Source of the DNA: Nonomuraea sp. NBC_00507
Lineage (GTDB): Bacteria > Actinomycetota > Actinomycetes > Streptosporangiales > Streptosporangiaceae
DNA length: 64,000 nucleotides
Reading direction: 5' to 3'
Assembly: GCF_036013525.1 (NCBI RefSeq)
Contig: NZ_CP107853.1
Coordinates: forward strand, 3,596,001 to 3,660,000
Shown here: positions 53,492 through 59,478 of the stretch, one piece after another
Layout of the letters: every line of letters starts with the position of its first letter
How positions within the stretch are numbered: position 1 is the first letter of the stretch
Program-made: the position numbers and the translations under genes
The notes under the pieces: model-generated
What the model was told of the DNA's origin: nothing
The model's input: only the letters and a program-made list of their open reading frames with translations
Database searches by the model: none

Positions 53492-55294
53492 GTGTCCGTT
53501 TCCGTGGAAGTGCCCGCACCGACGAGCAATAGCGAATTGGCCGCCTGGGTCAACGAGATCGCAGCCCTGACCCAGCCAGACCGGATCGAGTGGTGCGACG
53601 GGTCCGAGGAGGAGTGGACGCGCCTGACCAACCTCCTCGTCGAGCAAGGGACGTTCACGCGGCTGGCCGCCCGTCCCAACAGCTTCTACGCCAAGTCCGA
53701 CCCCAGCGACGTGGCCCGGGTCGAGGACCGCACCTACATCTGCTCCGAGCGCGAGGAGGACGCGGGGCCGACGAACAACTGGATCCACCCGGCGGAGATG
53801 CGCCGGACGTTCGGGCAGCTGTTCAAGGGCTCCATGCGCGGCCGGACCATGTACGTCGTGCCGTTCTGCATGGGCCCGCTGGGCGGCGAGATCTCCCAGC
53901 TCGGCGTCGAGATCACCGACTCGCCGTACGTCGCCGTCTCCATGCGGATCATGACCCGCATGGGCGAGCGGGCGCTGCGCCTCATCGAAGAACGCGGCGA
54001 CTTCGTCCGCTGCGTGCACTCCGTGGGCGCGCCGCTGGAGCACGGCCAGGTGGACGTGCCGTGGCCGTGTAGCTCCACCAAGTACATCAGCCACTTCCCC
54101 GAGACCCGCGAGATCTGGTCCTACGGCTCCGGGTACGGCGGCAACGCGCTGCTCGGCAAGAAGTGCTACGCGCTGCGCATCGCCAGCGTCATGGCCCGCG
54201 ATGAGGGCTGGCTGGCGGAGCACATGCTGATTCTCAAGCTCACCCCGCCCACCGGCGAGACCCGCTACGTCGCCGCCGCCTTCCCGAGCGCCTGCGGCAA
54301 GACCAACCTCGCCATGCTCCAGCCCACGATTCCCGGCTGGAAGGTCGAGACGATCGGCGACGACATCGCCTGGATGCGCTTCGGCGAGGACGGCCGCCTC
54401 TACGCGATCAACCCGGAGGCCGGCTTCTTCGGCGTCGCGCCGGGCACCGGCCAGGTGACCAACGCCAACGCGATCAGGACGCTCTGGGGCAACAGCATCT
54501 TCACCAACGTCGCGCTCACCGACGACGGCGACGTGTGGTGGGAGGGCCTGACCGACGAGCCGCCTGCGCACCTGACCGACTGGAAGGGCCGTTCCTGGAC
54601 GCCGGACAGCGACGAGCCCGCCGCCCACCCGAACGCCCGCTTCACCACCCCCGCCTCCCAGTGCCCCACCATCGCACCCGAATGGCAGGACCCCAAGGGT
54701 GTCCCCATCTCAGCCATCTTGTTCGGCGGTCGCCGCGCCACCGCCGTGCCTCTGGTAACAGAGTCGCTGAGCTGGGAGCACGGCGTCTTTCTCGGAGCCA
54801 ACGTCGCCTCCGAGAAGACCGCCGCGGCCGAGGGCAAGGTCGGCGAGCTGCGCCACGACCCCTTCGCCATGTTGCCGTTCTGCGGCTACAACATGGGCGA
54901 CTACTTCGGCCACTGGCTGAAGATCGGCCGTCGCGAGGGCGCCGTGCTCCCTCGGATCTACTACGTCAACTGGTTCCGCAAGAACGCCGACGGCCAGTTC
55001 ATCTGGCCCGGCTACGGCGAGAACAGCCGCGTGCTCAAGTGGATCGTGGACCGGCTCAACGGTGAGGCCAAGGCCGTGCCGACCCCGATCGGGCTGCTGC
55101 CCGCCGAGCTCGACACCGAGGGCCTGGAGCTGTCCGACGATGATCTGCACACGCTGCTGTCGGTCGACCGCGAGGTCTGGCGCGAGGAGGCCGCGCTGAT
55201 CCCGGCCCACTTCGAGAAGTTCGGCGACCACCTGCCGAAGGAGCTGTGGGAGGAGTACCAGGCCCTCCTCGACCGCCTCGGAGCGGCGCGATAG
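53492..55294 (+). CDS. pckG: Phosphoenolpyruvate carboxykinase (GTP)
   Basis: This 600-aa enzyme converts oxaloacetate to phosphoenolpyruvate with GTP, the entry step of gluconeogenesis. The P-loop [17 protein letters not shown] is near residues 266-282; the nucleotide- and metal-binding regions ([40 protein letters not shown]) match the GTP-dependent class. GTG 53492 has GGAGG upstream. DasR-like sites precede it. A 27-bp stretch across its stop codon recurs in the second TIGR04222 gene at 57227-57253. Confidence 0.97.
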
Positions 55295-55305
55295 GCCGGA
55301 GAGAG
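55279..55305 (+). repeat. 27-bp direct repeat, copy 1 (3' end of pckG)
   Basis: CGGAGCGGCGCGATAG followed by GCCGGAGAGAG occurs here across the pckG stop codon and, with no mismatch, at 57227-57253 inside the second TIGR04222 gene, in a different reading frame. Confidence 0.9.
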
Positions 55306-55382: not shown

Positions 55383-56375
55383 GTGGAGTTCGTGCTGCTC
55401 ATGGCCGCGATCGGTGTGGCGTTATTGGTCAACGCCGCCGTGAAACGCGTCGAGACGGAGCGGCGGCGGGTCAGCGAGGCCACGCCCAGCGGTGTCGGGC
55501 ACGCCCTGTCCCACTACGAGCTGGCGTACCTGACCGGTGGACCCCGCAGAGCCATCAACACGGCGCTGGCCGTCCTCGCGACGGCCGGCGCCGTCCGCGT
55601 GTCACGCGGATCGCAGGTCACCCCCGTCCATGGCGCACCGCCCTCGCTCGAGCCGATCGAACAGGCCGTGCTCGCCACGCTGGCCGCCAGGCCGGGCGGC
55701 TACCGGGCGAGCGAGCTGCGGCAGGCGCTGGCGGCACATCCGGCGCTGGCCGAGCTGGCGGCCGGGCTCGAACGGCGGGGGCTGATCGTGCCGAAGCAGG
55801 CGTTCGCCAGGGCGTGGCGGCGCAGGGACCACCTGCAGATCGTCATGATCGGAGCGGCCGGCTTCGCGGTGGGCGCGCTCGTGGTGTCCGCCTTCATCGA
55901 CATGAGCCCGCTGACCTTCGTGATCTTGCTGATCTTCATCGGGATCGCCCTCTTCACCGGGGCCGCCGGGCTCGCCAGGCAGGGCCGCGGCCTGCGGAAC
56001 GTCGTCACCCGGGCGGGTAGGGAGGTCCTGCGCTCAGCCCGCGACCACCACCCGCGCGGCGTACGCGACCAGAGCTCGCTGGCCTTGGCGGTGGGGGTGC
56101 CCGTCGCCCTGTACGGCCTGGCCGACGCCGGCGACCAGAGGCTCTGCGACGAGTTGTCGGCCGGCGCCCCTGGCGGCGACTGCGCGGGCTCCTGCGGCAC
56201 CCACAGCGGCGGCGACGGAGCCACCTTCGGCAGCGACTCCTACGGCGGCAGCGACTTCGGCGGCGGCTCGTCGAGCTGCGGTAGTGGCTCGTCCAGCTGT
56301 GGCAGCTCGTCCGGCGGCGGGTCGAGCTGTGGGGGAGGCGGCGGCGGTGGCGGCTGCGGTGGCGGTGGCAGCTGA
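55383..56375 (+). CDS. TIGR04222-type membrane protein with Cys-rich tail (copy 1)
   Basis: The 330-aa product has an N-terminal membrane span (VLLMAAIGVALLVNAAV), the TIGR04222-like cytoplasmic region (HYELAYLTGGPRRAINTALA, LRVSRG-type VRVSRGS, EPIEQAVLATLA), and two central spans (VMIGAAGFAVGALVVSAFI and VILLIFIGIALFTGAAGLA). A low-complexity tail from about residue 258 is built of Gly, Ser and seven cysteines ([20 protein letters not shown] and on). The tail resembles a modification substrate. Residue 14 is a TTA-coded leucine. GTG 55383 has GAGGGG upstream. It heads a probable operon with copy 2, DUF692 and a partner. Confidence 0.8.
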   Translation: MEFVLLMAAIGVALLVNAAVKRVETERRRVSEATPSGVGHALSHYELAYLTGGPRRAINTALAVLATAGAVRVSRGSQVTPVHGAPPSLEPIEQAVLATLAARPGGYRASELRQALAAHPALAELAAGLERRGLIVPKQAFARAWRRRDHLQIVMIGAAGFAVGALVVSAFIDMSPLTFVILLIFIGIALFTGAAGLARQGRGLRNVVTRAGREVLRSARDHHPRGVRDQSSLALAVGVPVALYGLADAGDQRLCDELSAGAPGGDCAGSCGTHSGGDGATFGSDSYGGSDFGGGSSSCGSGSSSCGSSSGGGSSCGGGGGGGGCGGGGS

Positions 56376-56478
56376 CTGAGCGGGCCCAGAACTGTATCCG
56401 CGCAGACGGAACCTTTACCTCGGCTTTATACGTCTTCCCGTTACCCAGCCTGTCGGGCTGCACGGAGGGGAGGCCTGA

Positions 56479-57468
56479 ATGGACCTGATCCTGCTGATCG
56501 TCTCGGTGGCGCTGGCGGCGCTCACCCTCACCATCGCCTCCACCATCAAACGTGAGCATGCCGCCGCCCGTGAGGCCGACACGGGCCTCCGTCTCCGCGA
56601 GCTCGGCCACTACGAGCTCGCCTACCTGGCGGGAGGCGCGTACCGGGTGGCGGACACCGCCGTCGCGCTGCTGGCGGAGGCGGGTGACCTGCGCGTGTCG
56701 CGCGGGGGCCGCGTCCACCAGGTGCACTCCAGCGTCGTCTCGCGCGAGCCCATCGAGGAAGCGGTGCTGGGCGTGGTCGCCTCCCGCTCGGGGCTGCCCG
56801 TGAGCGCACTGCGGATCGAGACCACGCGGACGCTGGCCATGGACGCGCTCGATCGCCACCTCGAGGGCCTGGGGCTGGTCCTGGCCGACGACGCCCTCGC
56901 CCGGGCCGGCCGGCTGAGCGTCCGGTTACAGGCCCTGTCGGGGGTGGCGTTCGCCGGCTTCGTGGTCGGCGCGGCGCTGATCCTGATCCAGGGCGCGAGC
57001 CTGCTGTCGTCGCTCGCGCTGACCCTCCTGGTCGTCACCGGGGTGATGGCGGCGATCTACGTCTGGAGGCACCGGCGCATCACCCGGGTCACGCTGACGC
57101 CGTCGGGACAGGAGATGCTCGAGGCGGCCAGGCGGGACAACCCCCGGGGCACCGCCGAGGGGGCCCTCGCGATCGCGCTGTACGGCCTCGGTGAGGTGCG
57201 TGATCCCGACCTTCAGGTGGAGCTCGCGGAGCGGCGCGATAGGCCGGAGAGAGCGAGGGACGAGCCAACGGAGGCCGCAGCAAGCGCGACCATAAGCACT
57301 GCGAGCACGGGCCGGCGGCGTCGCAGGGGCGGCGGTGCCTACGTGGCTGGGGGCGGGGCTTCATGGGGTGGAGGTGGCGGCGACAGCTCACCGTCGAGCG
57401 GGTCGAGCTGCGGAAGCGGATCGTCCGGCTGTGGTGGCGGAGGCTGCGGTGGTTGCGGCGGGGGCTGA
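56479..57468 (+). CDS. TIGR04222-type membrane protein with Cys-rich tail (copy 2)
   Basis: This 329-aa paralogue of the previous gene keeps the same order: an N-terminal span ([18 protein letters not shown]), [35 protein letters not shown], two central spans and a basic linker ([20 protein letters not shown]). The Gly/Ser tail ends in four cysteines ([20 protein letters not shown]). The linker is encoded by the 27-bp sequence shared with the pckG 3' end. Residue 150 is TTA-coded. ATG 56479 follows AGGGGAGG. Sequence similarity to copy 1 is clear but far from identity, so the duplication is old. Confidence 0.8.
57227..57253 (+). repeat. 27-bp direct repeat, copy 2 (inside the second TIGR04222 gene)
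   Basis: Identical to 55279-55305; here it encodes the linker residues ERRDRPER before the Cys-rich tail. Confidence 0.9.
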
Positions 57469-57517
57469 TGACACACGATTGGGAAAAGGGGGCGAGTTGA
57501 CCACCAAGGGGATTGAT

Positions 57518-57661
57518 ATGACCGGGGCTGGTACGCGCGACGAAAGGGCTGTGATGTCGGGGGCTGGATCGCGCGACGAAGGGGTTGTCATGTCGGGGGC
57601 TGGGGCCCGCGACAAAGGAGCTGTGATGTCGGGGGCTGGAGCGCGTGGCGAGGGGGCCGGG
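57518..57661 (+). repeat. Four 36-bp tandem repeats, each with a ribosome site and ATG
   Basis: Four consecutive 36-bp units encode variants of [12 protein letters not shown] in frame with DUF692 (units begin at 57518, 57554, 57590, 57626). Each unit ends with an AAAGGG-, AAGGGG-, AAAGGAG- or GAGGGGG-type box five to six bases before the next ATG, so every unit is a potential translation start, as is ATG 57662. The units are contiguous, with no spacers. Confidence 0.9.
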
Positions 57662-58477
57662 ATGGTGGAGCTGGGTGTGGGGATCGGCTGGCGGGCGGAG
57701 CTGGACCTGACGATCGAGCGTATGGACGGCGTCGACTTCGTCGAGGTGATCGCCGAGAACCTCAAACCCGGCCATCTGCCCGAGTCGCTGCTCGTGCTGC
57801 GGGCAAAGGACGTGCCGGTGATCCCGCACGGGGTGTCGCTAGGCATCGGCGCGGCCGAGCCGCCGTCTCCGGCCAGGCTCGCCCACCTGGCCGCCTGTGC
57901 GGAGGCGCTGGACGCGCCGCTGGTCAGCGAGCACCTGGCCTTCGTACGGGGCGGTGGTCTGGAGGCAGGCCATCTGCTGCCCGTGCCGCGTACCCGCGAG
58001 TCGCTGCGGGTCATCACGGAGAACGTGCGCCGGGCCCAGGACGCGTTGCCCGTCCCGCTGGCCCTGGAGAACGTCGCGGCGATCTTCGGGTGGCCCGACG
58101 ACGAGCTGACCGAGGGCCAGTTCCTTGCCGAGTTAGTGGAACGCACCGGCGTCGGGCTGCTGATCGACGTGGCCAATCTCTACACCAACCAGTTCAACCT
58201 GGGCCTGTCGGCGGTGGACGCGCTCGACGCGCTCCCCCTGGAGCACCTCGCCTACGTCCACGTGGCCGGCGGGTACGAGCACCAGGGCATCTGGCACGAC
58301 ACGCACACCACCACCGCGCCCCAGCCGGTGCTCGACATCCTCACCGAGCTGTGTGCCCGGGCCACCCCGCCGGGCGTGCTGCTGGAGTGGGACGACGACT
58401 TCCCGAGCGATGCGGCACTGGGGGACGAGCTGTCCAAGATCAGGACCGCGATGTCCCTGGCGGGGGAGGCCAGGTGA
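57518..58477 (+). CDS. DUF692 (MNIO-type) iron-dependent peptide-modifying enzyme
   Basis: From ATG 57518 the product is 319 aa: four 12-residue repeats (1-48) and then a TIM-barrel DUF692 protein starting at [14 protein letters not shown]692 members (MbnB, TglH and relatives) use two or three irons to oxidise cysteine residues of peptides. Candidate metal ligands visible are His104 (IPHGVSL), His139 (SEHLAF), Glu184 (LENVA), Asp217 (LLIDVANLY), His248 (YVHVAGG) and Glu290 (LLEWDDDFP). The canonical domain could also start at 57662. Residue 206 is TTA-coded. The stop overlaps the partner gene as GTGA. Confidence 0.88.
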
Positions 58478-58854
58478 CGCCCGAGCCGGTCGAGACGCCG
58501 CCGAGCGCGGCCGCGGCTCAGGCGCGGCTGGCGGAGGTGCAGGCGCGGGTGGTCGCGGCCCTGGTCGCCGGAGGCGCCATTCCTGAGGGTTTCGACCGGG
58601 AGCGGATACGGGCGCAGGCGGCGAGCCTGATCGCCAAGCGGCGCGGCATCGTGGCCAGGATCCGCCCCGACACCGCCATCGCCGCGGGGCCCGACCTGGC
58701 GGCGGAGTTCGCCGCCTACGCGCGCTCCCGAACCGAGCCGCCGCCCAACTACCGCACCGACGCCGACGACTTCGCCGCCTGGTTGCGTGAGCGCGGCCGG
58801 ATGCCGGAACCACCCCGTCGCAAGCCCCGTTGGTGGTCCCGCCTCCTGCCCTAG
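58474..58854 (+). CDS. Small partner protein of the DUF692 enzyme
   Basis: This 126-aa protein starts at GTG 58474, overlapping the DUF692 stop by four bases. It is helical ([20 protein letters not shown]) with [37 protein letters not shown] and [15 protein letters not shown], and has a basic C-terminus ([13 protein letters not shown]). DUF692 enzymes usually need a small adjacent partner that binds the precursor, and the FxxYA...FAxWL spacing recalls those, but the similarity is weak. It may be what is called SCO6045-like in streptomycetes (from memory). No cysteines, so it is not itself a likely substrate. Confidence 0.75.
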
Positions 58855-58920: not shown

Positions 58921-59478
58921 ATGGGGGGACTGCGCTGCGTCGATGGATCTTATCTGAGCGTCACGCCCGTGGCATGCACGGACACTGTGGGGACGCCGTA
59001 TGAGGTCACCCTGGAGCTGCACCGCGACGGCACTCCGTACGGTCGCGTGGGCGAGCGCTGCGGCTGGCTGCTCGCCCGCCTGGCGCGCGGCGTCGACGAG
59101 GCCCGCAGGGGCCGGGGCAAGGCCACGCGGTGGGCCGACCCTGACGACAGGTTCCCCGGCGAGGAGCCGGACGGCGAGCTCTTCTCCTTCCGCTACCGCA
59201 GCAGAACGAGCCTGGTCGGCGGCGGGGAGCTCAGCTGCCGGCTCCGCACGATCCCCCTCTGGGTGCCGAAGCAGGGCAGGCGCGGTGAGTGGCGGCTGAC
59301 CAGAAGGGCATACGTGGAGGCGTGGGGCAGCACAGGCGTGGGCATGCGGGCGGTGCTGACGTCGGCCGAGCTGTCGGCGTTCGTCCGCGGCCTTGTAGAA
59401 GAGGCCGAAGGGTGTCTGGAAGGAAGAGATCTGGTAAGGAATCCAGTACGAGGACCGGGCACGGGCGAAACGCGGTGA
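58921..59478 (+). CDS. Uncharacterised 185-aa protein
   Basis: The product has no signal peptide or membrane span. It shows a beta-rich N-terminus (GTPYEVTLELHRDGTPYGRV), a middle region rich in Arg (WLLARLARGVDEARRGRG) and a C-terminal helix (SAELSAFVRGLVEEAEGCLE). Not recognised. ATG 58921 is preceded by GGGGGG; an in-frame TTG at 58900 is less likely. It follows the DUF692 partner by 66 bp and might belong to that operon, but uppS follows closely too. Confidence 0.65.
   Translation: MGGLRCVDGSYLSVTPVACTDTVGTPYEVTLELHRDGTPYGRVGERCGWLLARLARGVDEARRGRGKATRWADPDDRFPGEEPDGELFSFRYRSRTSLVGGGELSCRLRTIPLWVPKQGRRGEWRLTRRAYVEAWGSTGVGMRAVLTSAELSAFVRGLVEEAEGCLEGRDLVRNPVRGPGTGETR

Follow-up and report, generated by a model that had tools for sequence, protein, structure and literature searches.

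Membrane-anchored Cys-Gly tails as proposed substrates of an MNIO (DUF692) operon in Nonomuraea sp. NBC_00507

What does an MNIO (DUF692) enzyme modify when its gene follows two tandem genes for TIGR04222 membrane proteins? The question is raised by a 64,000-nucleotide stretch of Nonomuraea sp. NBC_00507 (the window; positions 3,596,001-3,660,000 of a 12.7-Mb contig), in which one strand (+) carries two TIGR04222 membrane protein genes (A and B), an MNIO gene and the gene for a 126-aa partner. We consider it probable that this is an MNIO modification operon whose substrates are the Cys-Gly tails, predicted to be disordered, of the two membrane-anchored proteins. The tails are the best substrate reading because they co-occur with MNIO genes, the partner is present, their cysteines are enriched in Cys-Gly, and natural variants reduce the anchored protein to a helix plus tail. 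The idea is not new, having been proposed by Antoine et al. 2025 (PMC12452194), whose passages on TIGR04222 count more than 3,500 such proteins, mostly in Actinomycetota and often beside MNIO genes, describe cysteines in their C-terminal Ser/Gly regions, and propose a subset as MNIO substrates with PME-type 2 partners. One other paper, in the portion concerned, mentions TIGR04222 once, for a putative ribosomally synthesised and post-translationally modified peptide (RiPP) in Pseudonocardia, and a full-text literature search found no experiment on a TIGR04222 protein. The locus is a real, ordinary member of the class proposed in silico in 2025, with open counter-examples. Its features are as follows.

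55383-56375, + strand: TIGR04222 membrane protein A, 330 aa, GTG start; NCBIfam TIGR04222 at 129.7 bits
56190-56372, + strand: tail of A predicted to be disordered, residues 270-330, with 6 of the 7 cysteines counted to the tail; proposed MNIO substrate
56479-57468, + strand: TIGR04222 membrane protein B, 329 aa, the second tandem copy, ATG start; TIGR04222 at 99.9 bits
57394-57465, + strand: Cys/Gly end of the tail of B, with 4 cysteines, 4/4 in Cys-Gly; proposed MNIO substrate
57518-57661, + strand: four in-frame 36-base repeats in tandem (12 aa per repeat), upstream of the conserved MNIO start
57662-58477, + strand: MNIO (DUF692) enzyme, 271 aa from the conserved ATG; PF05114 at 266.5 bits
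58474-58854, + strand: small helical partner, 126 aa, GTG start; relatives carry Pfam PF26136

Both membrane proteins score above the TIGR04222 cut-off of 43 bits and are thus members of that family, and the partner gene, whose GTG starts at 58474, shares exactly 4 bases (58474-58477) with the MNIO gene, which ends in the stop codon TGA at 58475-58477. An original prediction made from the sequence alone had the coordinates, the order of the genes, the number of cysteines (7 and 4) and the 4-base overlap all right.

Co-occurrence was examined in 200 genomes of the family, which contain 150 listed TIGR04222 matches (weaker matches left out) and 95 MNIO matches, one MNIO of genome G120 being counted as two pieces; neighbours are genes within 5 kb, and all TIGR04222 counts for the family are among the matches listed. 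A TIGR04222 gene lies within 5 kb of 74 of the 95 MNIO matches, and all 97 TIGR04222-MNIO pairs are on the same strand (TIGR04222 precedes the MNIO in 89 of them and follows it in 8); the association is therefore more than chance. Of the 150 TIGR04222 proteins, 95 are near an MNIO and 24 lie elsewhere in genomes that have one, the other 31 coming from MNIO-free genomes. A Cys tail, called when the last 40 residues contained 2 or more Cys and 50% or more Gly+Ser, was found in 89/95, 6/24 and 2/31 of these groups, respectively, and at the level of genomes an MNIO is present in 73/75 with a Cys tail versus 3/32 without. A definition using the last 60 residues was tried first (81/95, 8/24 and 1/31; same conclusion), and was replaced because it took in part of the domain, so that short tails failed. 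The six proteins near an MNIO that lack a Cys tail by the adopted definition comprise three whose tails have 5 Cys at a Gly+Ser content of 42-47%, and three second copies without a tail (loci L072, L074 and L087), one of the latter being cut by a contig end.

Outside the family, 296 genomes of the class gave 69 TIGR04222 and 65 MNIO rows, each over the cut-off on its own; rows below the cut-off, or over it only with their neighbours, were left out, as were two small MNIO pieces of genome G502. In this sample 44/69 TIGR04222 genes are within 5 kb of an MNIO, and Cys tails occur in 27/44 of these, in 4/15 elsewhere in MNIO genomes and in 1/10 in MNIO-free genomes, while by genome an MNIO is present in 30/31 with a Cys tail versus 14/23 without. 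The original prediction held that TIGR04222 genes mostly without DUF692 neighbours would speak against it; this was not found, as a neighbour is present for 95/150 listed proteins in the family and 44/69 outside it. The near absence of Cys tails from MNIO-free genomes in both samples also argues against the alternative, which we regard as unlikely, that the Cys-rich tails stay unmodified and serve to buffer metal or redox state, while the MNIO and partner modify something encoded elsewhere.

A plain thiol buffer would need neither of two features of tail composition, Cys-Gly enrichment and Cys spacing. More specifically, the tail of A contains 7 counted cysteines in Gly/Ser sequence (the first just before residues 270-330), 5 of them followed by Gly, and in the tail of B all 4 cysteines are followed by Gly. 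Across the 89 MNIO-adjacent Cys tails of the family, 371/440 cysteines are in Cys-Gly compared with 43% ± 2 in 300 within-tail shuffles (maximum 52%), and neighbouring cysteines are one or two apart in 2/353 pairs compared with 15% in shuffles. Chance low-complexity drift as the origin of the tails is ruled out because both measures differ strongly from the shuffles. The dyad matches a known enzymatic preference: the relevant parts of PMC13097082 report that FonBC makes 5-thiooxazoles and prefers a Cys-Gly dyad, one Cys-Tyr substrate also being modified.

The small partner is the second constant companion of the enzyme. A profile model detects it in 73/73 family clusters of MNIO and TIGR04222 and in 0/54 TIGR04222 loci without MNIO, figures to be read with the construction of the model from the window's partner, 15 further cluster sequences and database proteins, so that at least 16 of the 73 clusters contributed to it and some database proteins come from the same species. 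In the family the partner is on the same strand in 72 clusters and fused in 1, and starts within 400 bases of the MNIO stop in 70/72. Beyond the family, 30 of 48 loci have it fused to the MNIO, 15 have it as a separate gene and 3 lack it, counted on those of the 65 MNIO rows that lie wholly in the sequenced locus (the other 17 left out); one of the three loci without a partner has just ~0.5 kb of sequence after the MNIO. Where no TIGR04222 gene is nearby, the partner was found at 8 of 19 MNIO loci scanned (L347-L350 and L352-L355) and was missing from 11 (ten with 1.5-kb flanks, and L351), so its occurrence tracks this MNIO subgroup and not TIGR04222 alone. Both PME-type 2 traits are found in the window's partner, namely a gene directly after the MNIO and no DUF2063 signature: no match to DUF2063 (PF09836) was obtained at E up to 10, and 1/37 relatives matched at E 0.096. 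Its fold may resemble the N-terminal domain of TglI (weak structural match).

The relatives' domain PF26136 is called 'SCO6045-like C-terminal domain' in source names, and from this Pfam name and the fusions elsewhere SCO6045 is a putative MNIO-partner fusion. In the sections of PMC4991794 that concern it, SCO6045 rose 3.0-fold in S. coelicolor under 0.15 mM H2O2, together with cysteine-assimilation genes, and an HbpS-SenS-SenR deletion mutant showed no up-regulated genes, hence SCO6045 was not among them.

Three of the MNIO loci without a TIGR04222 match (L352, L353 and L354, the latter two close relatives) carry a frame between MNIO and partner, placed by stop-codon order, that reads by eye as one hydrophobic helix, an Arg-rich sequence and a Cys/Gly tail. 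A membrane anchor, a Cys-Gly tail, an MNIO and the partner are what stays constant across standard and minimal loci. In a further locus (L355), a Cys/Gly tail ends a long putative frame without a TIGR04222 match. Because L352-L354 drop the TIGR04222 domain and retain helix and tail, they argue against the view that TIGR04222 is a tether, transporter or maturation helper that keeps the MNIO and partner at the membrane, with a tail that docks rather than serves as substrate. We hold this view to be quite unlikely, although it is favoured by the tail-less second copies in the family, by tail-less TIGR04222 proteins beside an MNIO in 17/44 cases at class level, and by a soluble domain resembling GPP34, a peripheral membrane recruiter.

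Several observations weigh against the tails as general substrates. The 17/44 MNIO-adjacent proteins without a Cys tail outside the family mean that the Cys-tail rule is not universal. In a tree of 138 of the 150 listed family proteins, the test of MNIO adjacency was not significant (six independent contrasts, median p 0.25): the tail changes in the same way in 2.9/6 contrasts on average and in the opposite way in none, and MNIO presence anywhere in the genome gives four contrasts, 1.0 for and 0.4 against. The direction of the dependence between tail and MNIO is right, and independence is not proven on the tree. At 11 loci of genus g75, an MNIO-partner fusion is paired with a tail-less TIGR04222 protein, and no Cys-tail frame was found within the 7.5-9 kb of sequence available there; at these loci either the substrate is elsewhere or TIGR04222 does more than serve as substrate. 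These loci favour the unmodified-buffer alternative, as do L347, L348, L349 and L350, which have MNIO and partner and no Cys-tail frame (L350 cut by a contig end). At one g75 locus (L337:4506-5282), a membrane or secreted protein of unassigned role, which we take to be DUF4142-like, is encoded between the fusion and the tail-less TIGR04222 gene. The proposal that membrane-protein tails are the substrates thus gains from co-occurrence, partner, Cys-Gly enrichment and the minimal variant, and loses generality to the tail-less neighbours outside the family.

Is the enzyme itself competent? The MNIO gene product belongs to PF05114 (cut-off 25 bits), and the closest solved MNIO is the TglH structure 8hci_D (E 2.3e-27). 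Of the nine TglH iron ligands listed in the part of PMC10880893 that describes them, 8 fall inside the 8hci_D alignment and all 8 are kept, residues being compared by reading the alignment; the ninth, His71, is outside it and is paired by the 3BWW alignment with the His of HGVSL. The active site therefore looks intact, judging by aligned residues. Against the BufB equivalog NF050167 the enzyme scores 194.3 bits, below the cut-off of 310. Its start is ambiguous between the conserved ATG at 57662 (271 aa) and positions as far upstream as ATG 57518 (up to 319 aa). Each 36-base repeat opens with ATG and a purine-rich stretch precedes the next repeat; the closest relative, L192 (MNIO 99% identical), has two copies compared with four here, and the repeats are possibly a start-site duplication or an extended N-terminus.

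On which side of the membrane would modification occur? Proteins A and B begin with a hydrophobic helix and the TIGR04222 model files them as membrane proteins. Hydropathy and a structure model give A a helix at 2-31, a soluble domain at ~44-131, a hydrophobic hairpin at ~153-195 and then the tail; the model has a mean predicted local distance difference test (pLDDT) score of 79.9, with residues 270-330 below 50, and on this model the Cys/Gly/Ser tail is disordered. The soluble domain of A is GPP34/DUF2207_C-like: hhalign pairs the TIGR04222 domain with DUF2207_C across 166 columns at 88%, compared with no more than 4.3% for six nulls, and the domain also resembles GOLPH3/Vps74 (GPP34). The DUF2207_C-type domain and GOLPH3/Vps74 are cytosolic. 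A plain hydropathy count of topology was too noisy (37/89 proteins with three segments, of which 29 fit and 8 did not) and was replaced by lysine plus arginine (K+R) counts in alignment-anchored flanks of the transmembrane (TM) helices in 89 proteins. Mean K+R is 3.76 after TM1 and 2.94 before TM2 (15 reference residues each), 3.20 after TM3 (17 residues), 0.31 in the TM2-TM3 loop (8) and 0 before TM1 (3), and both hairpin flanks exceed the loop in 79/89 proteins.

From this charge distribution and the relatives of the soluble domain, the tail appears to lie in the cytoplasm, unlike the periplasmic assignment in the TIGR04222 passages of PMC12452194. A periplasmic or surface-exposed position of the modified tail, as proposed there from topology predictions on selected proteins and as the export of bufferins might suggest, is in our estimation very unlikely given these same charges and domain relatives. 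Where the original prediction had left a surface or cytoplasmic display open, the cytoplasmic half is thus favoured and the surface half is not.

Taken together, tails as substrates would imply the following mechanism. A and B would insert with three TM helices, leaving the soluble domain and C-terminal tail in the cytoplasm, as charge distribution and homology indicate. The MNIO and partner would act as one cytosolic enzyme, as suggested by their overlap, co-occurrence and fusion, the partner possibly resembling the MNIO-binding N-terminal domain of TglI minus the RRE. Oxidation by the enzyme would take place at spaced [S/G]-Cys-Gly sites and, as with bufferins and oxazolins, would most likely yield 5-thiooxazoles, a step suggested by the Cys-Gly dyad and enzyme similarity. 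The product, the least certain part, could be an array of ligands for soft metals, probably Cu(I), that is tethered to the membrane and faces the cytoplasm, or else a thiol store that responds to redox state. As a tentative generalisation, Actinomycetota MNIOs may build membrane-tethered, cytoplasm-facing thiooxazole arrays with an RRE-less, fusable partner and a minimal substrate of one helix plus Cys-Gly tail, requiring neither leader nor export.

Further observations concern the same genome and the surroundings of the operon. A third TIGR04222 protein (L004:1468-2523) has six tail cysteines and no MNIO nearby, and is a possible target of modification in trans. The genome also encodes a second DUF692-like protein, a divergent one (L002:1177-2208, 43.5 bits), which is followed by an overlapping 294-aa frame and has no TIGR04222 nearby among the matches listed. 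The operon is flanked by a phosphoenolpyruvate carboxykinase (PEPCK) gene on one side and, one gene further on, by uppS on the other; the protein between partner and uppS, at 58951-59478, is uncharacterised. It recurs in 35/73 family clusters and 21/27 named loci, PEPCK in 52/73 and uppS in 49/73 family clusters (within the sequence flanks available), so that the operon often lies inside a conserved chromosomal block. An exact 27-base direct repeat occurs at 55279-55305, in the gap between the PEPCK gene and A, and at 57227-57253, within the linker encoded by gene B, where chance alone predicts 0 such repeats; its 24-base core recurs in L192 and, twice, in L194, both Nonomuraea relatives, and in locus L094 of the same genus. 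Nonomuraea also supplies the nearest named relatives: the MNIO is 99% identical in Nonomuraea sp. G32 and protein A 97% identical in Nonomuraea turcica.

If tails are indeed the substrates, the MNIO chemistry described for small peptides that are exported or released would also decorate integral membrane proteins, on the cytoplasmic side. In many soil actinomycetes this would provide a separate route to copper retention or redox sensing at the membrane, and the short [S/G]CG arrays could be used as simple tags in engineering. In its TIGR04222 passages the proposal of PMC12452194 left location, partner and extent open; location and minimal substrate are now directly checkable.

Comparison with known systems places the operon among several relatives. 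The TIGR04222 domain shares its alignment with DUF2207_C with the DUF2207/GPP34 proteins, which differ in that the low-complexity tails inspected are Gly/Ser without Cys; we know of no MNIO link for these proteins, although no search aimed at one was made. With TglHI, which makes 3-thiaglutamate, the operon shares its closest solved MNIO (8hci_D) and a possible, weak likeness of the partner to the TglI N-terminal domain, whereas TglI carries an additional RRE and the residue modified in that system is a Cys at the C-terminus of a small peptide, according to the relevant parts of PMC10880893. The captophorins (bufferins, oxazolins and fontiphorin; MNIO plus PME1) have in common with it a BufB-related MNIO (194 bits here, under the cut-off) and Cys-Gly sites, as in the EGKCG repeats described in part of PMC13097082. 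They differ in their Sec-signal precursors and in a partner with DUF2063 and RRE, as described in the corresponding passages of PMC12452194, whereas here there is no DUF2063 match over the cut-off, and an integral membrane protein is proposed as substrate. Closest are the TIGR04222-MNIO clusters of PMC12452194 as its TIGR04222 passages present them, which likewise combine Ser/Gly/Cys-tailed TIGR04222 proteins beside an MNIO with a small partner lacking DUF2063, in Actinomycetota. Those passages report PME-type 2 genes in at least 10% of TIGR04222 clusters, many having no partner, and in the passages on fusions covered here those named are MNIO-nitroreductase and bufferin fusions, not MNIO-partner ones. 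Against that background, the present analysis adds sharpened evidence for tails as substrates, a revised location for a tail that is probably cytoplasmic, and a partner that none of the family clusters examined lacks and that, elsewhere, is frequently fused to the MNIO.

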